Positions 450-17,799 of a DNA stretch of 50,422 nucleotides are shown here, in pieces. The notes beneath the pieces were generated by a model, which was given only the letters and a program-made list of their open reading frames with translations, was not told where the DNA came from and searched no databases. The DNA comes from a virus. The DNA lies in IMG/VR virus record IMGVR_UViG_3300044540_000087, positions 1 to 50,422 of that record; one strand, given 5' to 3'. The first letter of the stretch is position 1, and the number at the start of each line of letters is the position of its first letter. The position numbers and the translations under genes were made by a program.

Positions 450-755
450 TTATACTTCTTCGTCAGGAAGTCTAGTAGCATCGATTATTCGCTCTTTCAA
501 TCTATTGATTTTGAATGCTTTCATTGGATCTACTTTTTCTTGAATTCCAGGAAACATTAGTTTCAATTGTTCAATCATTATTTCCACATCTGCAATCTCA
601 CCAATCATATCATCAAACTTTTCATCATTTTGTTGTCTGATGAATTTTCTAATCGCTAAAGCTAATTCAGTGCTTTCTTCCTGTGCCATTTCTAGTTGGG
701 AGCGAATCCCCCATACTTCAATAGCTTTTTCAAAAATTTCTTCCTTACTATCCAT
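450..755 (-). CDS. MazG-like nucleotide pyrophosphohydrolase
   Basis: A 101-residue all-alpha protein with the MazG/dUTPase-like NTP-pyrophosphatase pattern: an EESTELALAIRKF helix at about residues 26-38 (E-E-x-x-E metal ligands) and a second helix, GEIADVEIMIEQL, supplying E and D. Family members hydrolyse NTPs or modified nucleotides to NMP and pyrophosphate, and some act on ppGpp. The ATG (753-755) directly abuts the stop codon of the nicotinamide phosphoribosyltransferase gene, so the two are probably translationally coupled and the enzyme belongs to the NAD/nucleotide operon. Substrate unknown. It is a single-domain form, shorter than the two-domain bacterial MazG. Confidence 0.75.
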   Translation of the reverse strand: MDSKEEIFEKAIEVWGIRSQLEMAQEESTELALAIRKFIRQQNDEKFDDMIGEIADVEIMIEQLKLMFPGIQEKVDPMKAFKINRLKERIIDATRLPDEEV

Positions 756-2366
756 TTATATGGTTTCGTTTAATAACTCTCTAACACGAGTTAGAGTAGT
801 TTGGTTATAAAAATTACCATCTTCGAAGATAACTTGGAGTAAACCTTGTCCTTCTTCTTCCCAGGTACATTGATCTTTCAATTTGATAATACCATCTTCT
901 TCATAAACCATTAACAATCCTTTTGCTGATTTTTTAATACCGCTATCAGTTGCAGGGTCTTTAAAGATTTCAATTCCTTTATCAAAAACTTCGATGTAAG
1001 TTGCTTTTTGAGCAGAACCGTGTGTATCTCTAGTTACGAATTGTAAACTATAAGAACCGATTCCTAAAACAACGTTAGTAGAAGCAAATCCTTTTTCAGC
1101 TAATCTTTCGAAAATCTGTTTAGCTCTTTGGTAATTGATACTATCACCGTAGATAACGCCAATATGAGAATCTAATACTTTGTAACCCGTAGATGAAATA
1201 GTTCCACCAAACACTTCCCAAAGCAATTCAACTACACCTTTATACTCATTTACTCCAACAGTTTTACCTTCGTTGTAATCAAGTTTACCGTAGTAATCAA
1301 CTACATATTTACCATCTTCGTTGATAGTTTCTTTGTAATCTTCTCTGAACCAAGAATCACCTCTATCACCACAAATGATGTCAACAGGATCGCCAGAGTC
1401 AGGACGAATTACTAATTTACCATCACGAGCCATAATAATATCTTTAGCTCTTGCACAATAGTCCGTTACAGCTCTGAATAAGTCAAATGTATCCATTACT
1501 AATGATAAGATACCGCTATTGAATTTTTTTAGTAAGTGAACAAACATTTCATATTCAAAGTCAGCTACTTTACTCCAATTTCCATCAGAATTCATCATAA
1601 AGAATCCTGTTAATGAACACATAATAGCGTGTTCAGATGCAATTACTGAGTTGATACAAGGTTCAACTTCATCGTAATACATTCTAGCGGCAGGGATAAC
1701 AGGTAATGTATCAGAACCTCTTGATCCGGTTGCGAATCCTAATCCAGAGTTTACGATAGAAGATTTACCACCCATACCTCTCATAGAGAAATCGTGAAAT
1801 TGGAAGTCTAAGAAACCAATTGCTTCTGGATTAGTTTTCATAATCCATTCTTTACCCAATTTTCTCAAAGATCTTACAAATGTAGCTGATGTTTGAGCTT
1901 GCCAAAACTCTGCTGATAAGATAGTTTCTAAATAGTTAACAATCCAATCTGCTACATAACCATTGATAGGTTTAGTATTTACAATTGTAAAAGATGGGAT
2001 TTTGTAAGGTGTTACAGTTCCTTCTTTAAGAGCTTTAATTCTAACCGGTAAGTAACCAAGTTTATGAAGTTCGATAAAGTGAGTTACGTCATAAGGTTCT
2101 GATAACCCCAACATAAAAGTCATATCTTCTCCAAATTTGTAAATTTCTTCGATTGGTCTTTTGAAGAAGTTGTTATCCCAATCAGTTTTCATTTGTCTTG
2201 TTAACTTTTGTTGCCCAAACTGAACAACTTCACCAAGATTCGGACAGTTGCTATATTTACCACTTCTAGGAGTGTTGTTAGAGTACATAAGTGTGCTTCC
2301 CTCAGGGAGCATTGGTTTGTGACCTGTTTTATAAACATCAGTCCAATAAATTTCTAAAAAGTTCAT
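756..2366 (-). CDS. nadV: Nicotinamide phosphoribosyltransferase (NadV/NAMPT family)
   Basis: A 536-residue enzyme of the NAMPT family, which makes nicotinamide mononucleotide from nicotinamide and PRPP. Visible family motifs: YWTDVYKTGHKPMLP at the N-terminus; FLDFQFHDFSMRG; GFATGSRGSDT; the active-site His in ASEHAIMC; the phosphate-binding VIRPDSGDP with the Arg and Asp ligands; GIGSYSLQFVTRDT; and FKDPATDSGIKKSAKG. All catalytic residues I know of appear present. It follows the PRPP-synthetase-like gene after 5 bases and abuts a MazG-like gene, so the three look like one transcript. The pairing suggests NAD+ rebuilding during infection. In phage NARP1 anti-defence systems a similar-looking pair uses ADP-ribose pyrophosphate instead; sequence alone does not decide which applies here. 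Confidence 0.92.
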   Translation of the reverse strand: MNFLEIYWTDVYKTGHKPMLPEGSTLMYSNNTPRSGKYSNCPNLGEVVQFGQQKLTRQMKTDWDNNFFKRPIEEIYKFGEDMTFMLGLSEPYDVTHFIELHKLGYLPVRIKALKEGTVTPYKIPSFTIVNTKPINGYVADWIVNYLETILSAEFWQAQTSATFVRSLRKLGKEWIMKTNPEAIGFLDFQFHDFSMRGMGGKSSIVNSGLGFATGSRGSDTLPVIPAARMYYDEVEPCINSVIASEHAIMCSLTGFFMMNSDGNWSKVADFEYEMFVHLLKKFNSGILSLVMDTFDLFRAVTDYCARAKDIIMARDGKLVIRPDSGDPVDIICGDRGDSWFREDYKETINEDGKYVVDYYGKLDYNEGKTVGVNEYKGVVELLWEVFGGTISSTGYKVLDSHIGVIYGDSINYQRAKQIFERLAEKGFASTNVVLGIGSYSLQFVTRDTHGSAQKATYIEVFDKGIEIFKDPATDSGIKKSAKGLLMVYEEDGIIKLKDQCTWEEEGQGLLQVIFEDGNFYNQTTLTRVRELLNETI

Positions 2367-2371
2367 ATATA

Positions 2372-3145
2372 TTATATGTTAAATTGTTTGATTATTTGTA
2401 AATTCTCTAAATTATAAGATTCAAACTTACTGTTTGTGCAGTAGATTTTATCATAAAGATTAGATAATTCTTTATTTGGATTCTCAACTGTGATGTGGCT
2501 TACTGCTAAATATAATTTACCAACATTTCGCTCTTTTAACATCTTAGCAAGTCCAAGGAAAGTTCCACCGAATACACATAAATCATCTAAGATAAGAATA
2601 TCTTTTCCTTGAAAATCTTGTCTGTCGATAACTTGAACAAGTTTATGTGTTTGAGGGTCTCTTGATTTACTAGCACCATAAACTTCGCTTTCGTAGTCTA
2701 ATTTATCTGCTAATTTATTGATCCATTTATATGAACCACCATCAGTTGATAATAGAATTGGTTTAGAACCGATGTCTTCTAATACTTTAGATACGAAATC
2801 ACTATTATCAATAATACGTGCTCTTTTTAGAGAACCTTGTGTTACATCAGAGTGTGGATGAAAAACGTGTACTTTTGAAAAATTGCAAGAATTTATAAAT
2901 TCAGACACGATTTGTAGTTCGAAAGATTCATTTTCATTAAATCTTCTATCGTGTTGTTGCTGAAACATACAAGGTATAACCAATTCTACGTTTTCAACTA
3001 AATTGTGATCACAAGCTTCTTTTAGTGATTTGATAAAAAATAAATCCTCATAGGTATTTATTCTCTCTGTGATAACTGGATTGGTGAAATCATCGATTTG
3101 AGCATAAATTCCACCATCTGGGTATTTTAATCTTTTGTAAATCAT
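2372..3145 (-). CDS. prs: Ribose-phosphate pyrophosphokinase-like enzyme (PRPP synthetase family)
   Basis: A 257-residue protein that looks like PRPP synthetase: VIPCMFQQQHDRR matches the catalytic flexible-loop region, HPHSDVT follows, ILLSTDGGSYKW fits the ribose-phosphate loop, and DDLCVFGGT is the PRPP-binding loop. It is about 55 residues shorter than typical bacterial Prs (about 315), and the usual TGGT is FGGT. I chose the ATG at 3143-3145 because the longer reading would start at a TTG lying inside a promoter -7 box. It is directly upstream of nadV (5 bases) and should feed it PRPP. A short Prs-like protein next to a NAMPT-like protein is also the layout of the phage NARP1 pair, in which the enzyme makes ADP-ribose pyrophosphate. 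Confidence 0.85.
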   Translation of the reverse strand: MIYKRLKYPDGGIYAQIDDFTNPVITERINTYEDLFFIKSLKEACDHNLVENVELVIPCMFQQQHDRRFNENESFELQIVSEFINSCNFSKVHVFHPHSDVTQGSLKRARIIDNSDFVSKVLEDIGSKPILLSTDGGSYKWINKLADKLDYESEVYGASKSRDPQTHKLVQVIDRQDFQGKDILILDDLCVFGGTFLGLAKMLKERNVGKLYLAVSHITVENPNKELSNLYDKIYCTNSKFESYNLENLQIIKQFNI

Positions 3146-3169: not shown

Positions 3170-3177
3170 CAAAGGTA
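3170..3177 (-). promoter_or_regulatory. Flavobacterial-type -7 box TACCTTTG for the NAD operon
   Basis: Matches TAnnTTTG on the minus strand, 24 bases before the prs ATG. No clear TTG -33 box is present; TTTAG lies about where it would be expected. Confidence 0.5.
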
Positions 3178-3198
3178 CGACATATTATTCGTCGTACC
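3174..3198. promoter_or_regulatory. Inverted repeat overlapping the NAD-operon promoter
   Basis: GGTACGAC (3174-3181) and GTCGTACC (3191-3198) are perfect 8-bp inverted repeats separated by 9 bases, and one arm overlaps the TACCTTTG box. It lacks the U-tract of the phage terminators, so an operator or a 5'-UTR hairpin is more likely. Confidence 0.5.
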
Positions 3199-3207
3199 TA
3201 AACATTT

Positions 3208-13879: not shown

Positions 13880-15097
13880 ATGAATATGAAAGAAGAGTTA
13901 TTAAATTTAATAGAAAGTAAGGCACCTGGTTCTAAACCATTGTATCTTGTTATAAGGGGTTCCCATTCTTATGGGACAAATATTGAAACCTCTGATATGG
14001 ATTTTGGTGGTGTGTTTATTCAACCACTCGAAGATATATTAGGGAATAAATATGTAGAGCAAATAAATGATGATAAAAATGATATCGTTATTTATGAAAT
14101 TAGAAGATTCCTAGAAATGTGTGGTATTAATAACCCTAATATTTTAGAACTTCTTAACACACCGGAAGACTGTATCGTTTACAAGGATCCAGCTTTCGAT
14201 GAAATCTTAGCTAACAGAGATAAATTCTTAACTAAACAATGTGGTAATACATTAGGTGGTTATGCTAAAACTCAAATCGGTAAAGCAGAAGGTTTAGATA
14301 AAAAACAAAACTGGGAGAACGATAGAATTGTAAGAAAAGACATTCTTGATTTCTGTTATGTAATTAAAGGTGAAAAATCAATTCCTTGGAGAAAATGGAA
14401 TAATGGTTTATATGATGAAAAATTTATTGGTGCTGTTAACGTACCAAATGCTAAAGATGTGTATGCTTTGTATTACGACTCTGGTGCTTATAACTGCTTC
14501 GGTGGTGAATTGGTTACAGAAGAACAAATTTTTCATGCTAATTCCGCTAAAACTATTTTGCTTGCCGCTGGTTTACCACTTGGATTTGGATATAAAGGAC
14601 TTGTAAAAGTTGGTGATGCTGATGATTCAGGTAAAGTAAACTATGGTGTTTCTAATCAATTAAGATTATCATCTATTCCGAAAGATCAGGAATCAATTTG
14701 TATTATTACTTATAACAAAGATGGTTATTCACAACATTGTAAAGACTTTGCGGAATATGAGGAATGGTTAGAGAAGAGAAATACACAAAGATATGTTGAT
14801 GTTAAAAATCACAATCAAAAAATTGATGGTAAAAACTTAATGCACTGTTTCAGATTGGTTGGTATGTCAAGAGAGATTGCTGAGGGTAAAGGTGTTATTG
14901 TTAGACGAGATAATGCCGAAGAATTATTAGCTATTAGACGTGGTGAGGTTGATTTACGTACATTGATTGAACATGTTGAGAGTGAGTTGGTTATAATCAA
15001 CGGATTGTATAAAAACTCTAACTTACCAGAAAAAGTAGATAAAGAATTAATAAATAGTTTAATTATTAAAATTAGAAAAGAAGTATATGGTTTATAA
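13880..15097 (+). CDS. Polymerase-beta-fold nucleotidyltransferase, RNA-repair (RlaP-like) type
   Basis: A 405-residue protein whose N-terminal RGSHSYGT and SDMDFGGVF segments (about residues 27-50) give the GS and DxD signature of the nucleotidyltransferase fold, in the arrangement I associate with the YcgL/RlaP family (PF10127) linked to RNA-repair loci. A following helical region (EIRRFLEMCGINNPNILELL) is typical of the family. The metal-binding Asp residues are present, so it is probably active, adding nucleotides to RNA or another acceptor; the substrate is unknown. The start could be ATG 13880 or 13886. The downstream gene overlaps its end by 11 bases. Confidence 0.8.
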   Translation: MNMKEELLNLIESKAPGSKPLYLVIRGSHSYGTNIETSDMDFGGVFIQPLEDILGNKYVEQINDDKNDIVIYEIRRFLEMCGINNPNILELLNTPEDCIVYKDPAFDEILANRDKFLTKQCGNTLGGYAKTQIGKAEGLDKKQNWENDRIVRKDILDFCYVIKGEKSIPWRKWNNGLYDEKFIGAVNVPNAKDVYALYYDSGAYNCFGGELVTEEQIFHANSAKTILLAAGLPLGFGYKGLVKVGDADDSGKVNYGVSNQLRLSSIPKDQESICIITYNKDGYSQHCKDFAEYEEWLEKRNTQRYVDVKNHNQKIDGKNLMHCFRLVGMSREIAEGKGVIVRRDNAEELLAIRRGEVDLRTLIEHVESELVIINGLYKNSNLPEKVDKELINSLIIKIRKEVYGL

Positions 15098-17262: not shown

Positions 17263-17799
17263 ATGAAAGAAGATATGAATATGAGAAAGCTAGTTAGTTT
17301 TGATTTTGATGATACACTTTTCGATACACCAAAACCAGAAGATGGTAAGGATGTTTGGAAAGAAAAAACAGGTACCGAATGGCCACATAAAGGATGGTGG
17401 GGTAAAGCTGAAACATTGGATATGAATATATTCGATATTAAGCTTAATGGATTTGTACACGATGAATACTTAAAATACTTTGGTGCTGATAACCACGTTA
17501 TCTTAGCAACCGGAAGACTTGATAGCAGAAAAGTTTCACTTAAAAATGAAGTTAATGCTATATTAGATGCTAACAAACTATCTTTTGATGGTGTTTACTT
17601 AAATACAGGTATTGATACATTTGATTTTAAATCAAGATTATTTGAAAAATTAATCGATGAAGTTAAGCCAACTGAATTCATTATGTTTGATGATAGAGAA
17701 GAACACATTGATAGATTTGCTGAATGGGCAAAGGGTCAAAAATGTGATGTTTTAATATATGATGTTAGACGAATGATAACTATTCCAGTTAAAAACTAA
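17263..17799 (+). CDS. HAD-superfamily phosphatase, RNA-repair (SAK) type
   Basis: A 178-residue HAD hydrolase. Motif I is FDFDDTLFDTP, with both catalytic Asp; motif II is ILATGR; a Lys follows (about residue 122) and motif IV is MFDDREEH. The stretch FDTPKPEDGKDVW with a later KGWWGKAE resembles the HAD_SAK_1 family described in multidomain RNA-repair proteins. The likely role is removal of phosphate from RNA ends or nucleotides. Three in-frame ATGs (17263, 17275, 17281) occur before motif I; the position of the promoter favours the later ones. It is first in a run with the zinc protein (TAATG overlap) and clpS. Confidence 0.82.
   Translation: MKEDMNMRKLVSFDFDDTLFDTPKPEDGKDVWKEKTGTEWPHKGWWGKAETLDMNIFDIKLNGFVHDEYLKYFGADNHVILATGRLDSRKVSLKNEVNAILDANKLSFDGVYLNTGIDTFDFKSRLFEKLIDEVKPTEFIMFDDREEHIDRFAEWAKGQKCDVLIYDVRRMITIPVKN

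Follow-up and report, generated by a model that had tools for sequence, protein, structure and literature searches.

A divergent NARP1-type gene pair predicted in a relative of huge phages

The window analyzed here, a viral record of 50,422 bases, is a fragment in which no tRNA genes were found. Three closely packed genes lie on its minus strand: an Adps-like gene of Prs fold (2372..3145; 257 aa), predicted to encode an ADP-ribose pyrophosphate synthetase; a Namat-like gene of NAMPT fold (756..2366; 536 aa), predicted to encode a nicotinamide ADP-ribose transferase; and a gene for a MazG-superfamily nucleotide pyrophosphohydrolase (450..755; 101 aa). Five bases separate the stop of the first from the second, and the third abuts the second with a gap of 0. 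An earlier note had described this layout as a Prs-like gene followed by NAMPT-like and MazG-like genes, and both the coordinates and the family matches agreed with it. The open frame of the Prs-like gene opens at TTG 3172, a codon that sits within a promoter-like box upstream of the gene, while ATG 3145 gives the 257-aa protein; since the placement of the −7 box and of an inverted repeat supports ATG 3145, this codon was preferred as the start.

The candidate promoter of the operon is a Bacteroidota-type −7 box, TACCTTTG (3170..3177, minus strand), located 24 bases upstream of ATG 3145, at which a clear −33 TTG is absent. It is overlapped by a perfect 9-bp inverted repeat, AGGTACGAC-9-GTCGTACCT (3173..3199, unstranded), a candidate for an operator-like element. 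The repeat matched once in the window, shuffled sequence (100 rounds) gave no match even when 3 mismatches were allowed, and its reading as a terminator was ruled out by the lack of a T run after it. The box and the overlapping repeat together suggest a regulated operon promoter. TAnnTTTG is the consensus of the Bacteroidota-type −7 box, and it was found upstream of 13 of the 51 gene starts in the window (expected, 3.4). Because of this enrichment, the host is probably a Bacteroidota bacterium.

Two metagenomic huge phages, of 634,780 and 642,428 bases, have terminases 74% and 73% identical to the T4-type terminase of the window; for phages of 636–735 kb the identity is 40–45%. Judged by this protein, the window phage is related to huge phages of 630–735 kb. 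Other genes in the window encode NusA, topoisomerase IV/gyrase subunit A, ClpP, ClpS, an M50 peptidase, the RNA-repair polymerase RlaP and a protein with a weak tail-sheath match. Genes of RNA-repair type, for the RlaP nucleotidyltransferase and a Swiss-army-knife HAD phosphatase, are present at 13880–15097 and 17263–17799. True Prs genes occur in the huge-phage relatives, two of which encode a canonical Nampt as well, at a distance; in contrast to the window, no NARP1 pair was found in those examined.

The Prs-like protein matched TIGR01251 with E=5e-23 at 81–82 bits, under the curated cut-off of 113 bits, and phrog_619 with E=2e-47. With 257 aa against 313 aa in Bacteroidota Prs, it is indeed about 55 residues short, as the earlier note had it, and the FGGT that the note saw in place of the TGGT of true Prs was confirmed. 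Instead of the ribose-5-phosphate loop of Prs (DTGGT or DTAGT), the window protein reads DLCVFGGTF; the full loop is DDLCVFGGTF, compared with DDLSSFGGTF in the Adps of SPbetaL1 and DDICDGGRTF in that of Bas63, whereas the Prs of E. coli, of all six Bacteroidota examined and of most huge phages have a D-T-G/A-G-T/S-L loop. The note took FGGT to leave a NARP1-like reaction open, which understated the case: the Adps of SPbetaL1, an enzyme tested biochemically, itself has the FGGTF loop. Likewise, the ribose-binding DLHxxxIxG of Prs is replaced by PHSDVT in both the window and SPbetaL1, and the catalytic K-x-R pair is kept (K-S-R in the window). In an unrooted tree of 62 rows, 11 of 11 true Prs fell into one clade (support 100/100), with the window, SPbetaL1 and Bas63 proteins on the opposite side. 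The protein is predicted with confidence to adopt a Prs fold (pLDDT 91.9; TM 0.8 to Prs, on the query); alignments for structure prediction consisted of window and viral-contig proteins only.

The NAMPT-like protein matched NF006629 above its cut-off in a profile search (E=1e-126) and phrog_448 with E=5e-157. Its closest PDB entries, by sequence and by fold, are those of SPbetaL1 Namat (9w5w/9w5x); the second-best PDB match was HdNadV, in which Q and R stand in place of the two aromatic residues. The published helix signature of Namat is GSX-phi-X-phi-X-phi-TRD with aromatic residues 3 and 7, and the window protein reads GSYSLQFVTRD, with Y at 3 and F at 7. Clamp position 5, usually aromatic, is Leu, and close relatives differ at position 7 (L002 has H, L018 has M). 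In the published clamp loop the third residue is R, K or Y, where K or Y needs a stacking fourth residue; the window has S-G-K-Y (Bas63, K-W). The catalytic core is complete (D13, Y15, F189, R192, D215, A242, R306, D308, G360, D361, R399 and D400), the catalytic-His motif SEH is present, and the NAD-contacting residues equal those published for SPbetaL1 Namat apart from A362 to S and the clamp substitutions. In the tree, the canonical Nampts formed one clade (100/99) and the window protein stood on the Namat side. The phage Nampts paired with an NMN adenylyltransferase and those of two huge-phage relatives are without the aromatic pair and belong to this separate clade; Nampts of NARP2-type or Prs-less phages are likewise canonical and without the aromatic pair at the clamp. 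In one relative, about 720 bases interrupt the Namat gene (L005:5831–6551), possibly an intron or intein.

Comparison with known systems placed the window pair nearest to NARP1. With the SPbetaL1 system (Adps WIT26982 and Namat WIT26983) it has in common the Adps-then-Namat order, the FGGTF loop, PHSDVT and the clamp motif, at identities of 26–30% (Adps) and 43–44% (Namat); the differences are Lys then Tyr, as in the Bas63 type, in place of clamp Arg40, the Leu at clamp position 5, and the MazG gene downstream of the pair. Escherichia phage Bas63 (JohannRWettstein) shares the gene order, a clamp-loop Lys followed by an aromatic residue and a tyrosine at clamp position 3, but its Adps loop is DGGRTF rather than FGGTF, and the identities are 26% (Adps) and 36% (Namat). 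Chromosomal Bacteroidota pairs of NARP1-like type (Flavobacterium, Pedobacter, Maribacter; L044–L123) carry the clamp signature of the window, with an Adps-like gene near Namat in most; their Namat is about 41–48% identical, their Adps loop is mostly DGGRTF or DGGGTF, and order and spacing vary. The best 80 bacterial matches, which make up these loci, were all from Bacteroidota as judged by record title, and the NAMPT-like protein carries the Namat clamp in all of them. NARP2 and canonical Nampts (Ccr34, BONAISHI, Ruegeria V10, HdNadV) share the NAMPT fold and catalytic core with the window protein, but have no aromatic clamp; those of Ccr34, BONAISHI and Ruegeria V10 have an NMN adenylyltransferase as partner and lie in a separate clade. 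The window protein has the clamp, and no NMN adenylyltransferase was found among the neighboring genes. Prs of E. coli, Bacteroidota and huge phages resemble the window protein in fold, the catalytic K-x-R pair and the DD of the PRPP loop, and differ in the TGGTL/TAGTL loop, DLHxxxIxG and a length of about 313 aa or more.

We consider it highly probable that the first two genes constitute a NARP1 pathway of Adps and Namat, a reading that draws on gene order, family membership, catalytic and specificity residues, trees and predicted folds; the two genes are neighbors on the same strand, 5 bases apart. The enzyme reactions and the anti-defence effect are inferred from tested relatives, namely SPbetaL1, Bas63, Paenibacillus and DyoEdafos. 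The pathway itself is established (Osterman et al., 2024, as cited in PMC11984713; PMC12774641; PMC13232231), and a 2026 review (PMC13292451) does not mention it. According to the proposed mechanism, host immune effectors of TIR, SIR2 or SEFIR type would cleave NAD to ADP-ribose debris, Adps would spend ATP to add pyrophosphate to ADP-ribose, and Namat would couple the resulting ADPR-PP with nicotinamide to NAD+; through this two-step rebuilding, the phage would survive NAD-depleting abortive defences. The pair could instead serve ordinary salvage, in which a phage Prs makes PRPP, a NadV-type NAMPT makes NMN and host enzymes complete NAD. The folds are identical in kind, and family models label the genes Prs and NadV-like. 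In vitro, SPbetaL1 Namat can produce NMN from PRPP as well, so ordinary salvage is possible as a side activity. As the main function it appears very improbable and was rejected on residues and trees: FGGTF and PHSDVT replace the TGGT loop and DLHxxxIxG, in both trees the pair falls with the Adps and Namat proteins that have been tested and off the canonical enzymes, and the neighboring genes examined include no NMN adenylyltransferase.

Specificity residues, the structure search and both trees thus bore out the NARP-type pair of the earlier note, but its suggestion that the linked MazG-like enzyme may be a third component found no support in conservation. If the MazG protein worked with the pair, it might, for example, break down a nucleotide that signals immunity, such as dITP, ahead of an NADase. 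The gene abuts the pair, and its product, which matched phrog_2245 (E=2e-26), has an intact ExxE(12-28)ExxD motif (E27xxE30-22-E53xxD56 in P0003); moreover, RyDEP, an accessory enzyme inserted in a mycobacteriophage NARP1 operon, feeds the pathway, and L020/L021 have another kind of MazG close to NARP1. Yet none of 80 MazG relatives in viral contigs lay within 5 kb of a gene resembling Adps or Namat, the 197 NARP1-type loci contained at most one member of the window MazG family, a weak one, and the gene is absent from the syntenic relative L002; six NARP1 phage records also held no MazG, an empty result that shows little alone. A conserved third component was rejected on this lack of a consistent link, and joint action of all three enzymes seems unlikely. 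The MazG gene is most likely a passenger of the operon, which, co-transcribed with the NARP1 pair, would most likely clean nucleotide pools; because RyDEP feeds NARP1 from within its operon, MazG may still have a lineage-specific role.

Between 7665 and 756, each gene of the window has its counterpart in the syntenic relative L002, with ClpP 76% and Namat 81% identical, but the Adps of L002 (L002:4136–4999) is only 32% identical to that of the window and has a DGGRTF loop. The Namat tree grouped the window with L002 and L003 (100/99), whereas the Adps tree grouped it with L004, L011 and L012 (97/94) and put L002 and L003 in another clade (100/100). Because the two trees place the window with different relatives, they indicate that Adps was replaced here in either the window lineage or that of L002. 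The presence of so distant an Adps in syntenic surroundings points to exchangeable NARP1 partners.

In several relatives, a HAD-type protein of 130–150 aa with a DxDxT motif is encoded between Adps and Namat (e.g., L003:4576–4974 and L011:1962–2405). A search with the HAD protein only yielded 80 loci (L237–L315 among them), 75 of which had Namat or Adps within about 6 kb and 67 both, with the search seeds taken from NARP1 loci and the loci related by descent; grouped at 70% identity, they formed 46 clusters, 42 of them NARP1-linked. The order Adps-HAD-Namat was seen in 55 of the 80, gene ends usually overlapped or nearly touched, and a median of 3 bases separated the HAD gene from its nearest NARP1 neighbor. 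A linked copy lies at L316:3962–4387, and the gene also adjoins NARP1 genes in 5 of 80 bacterial loci (L058–L060, L102, L121), in a crAss-like phage and in Tenacibaculum phage PTm1. Residues D33, D35, T37 and K109, of the catalytic site, are invariant or nearly so; by our reading, the DxDxT motif does not support the PHROG name of the family, phosphoheptose isomerase. In the window, the linked HAD gene is not beside the operon. We regard the HAD-type phosphatase as a rather likely third NARP1 enzyme in these related phages, on the strength of its gene linkage. That Bacteroidota-type phages carry a modular NARP1 cassette, with an exchangeable Adps and a dedicated third enzyme, mostly HAD and MazG in the window, both clearing phosphorylated side products or nucleotide signals, is a speculative extension that we hold to be improbable, above all in its MazG half.

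At two loci (L304:622–2090 and L305:591–2059), the gene immediately before HAD is Prs-like and has a DTAGTL loop of canonical type, and no Namat was found in the examined stretch. Elsewhere (L022:5815–8704 and L019:5771–6286), NADAR, macro-like (phrog_335) and nucleoside-deoxyribosyltransferase-like (DUF1937) genes lie beside Adps; no Pfam match was found for the macro-like genes, which are so named from our own reading of the sequence. The NADAR, macro-like and DUF1937 genes possibly form an ADP-ribose salvage cluster with Adps, and the NADAR and macro-like genes near Adps fit a report that NADAR genes adjoin phage NAD-salvage genes (PMC9503650).

The window pair is therefore well supported, at the level of sequence, as a divergent new member of NARP1 in a huge-phage relative, of a pathway type already known in other phages. 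A complete NARP1 pair is now placed in a phage related to the largest ones known, on a branch unlike the tested examples. Residue tests tell NARP1 from the ordinary NAD salvage with which annotation pipelines confuse it, given family models named for Prs and NadV. Adps can apparently be exchanged with Namat and the genes around it left in place, and the linked HAD gene of the relatives offers a concrete new candidate component.
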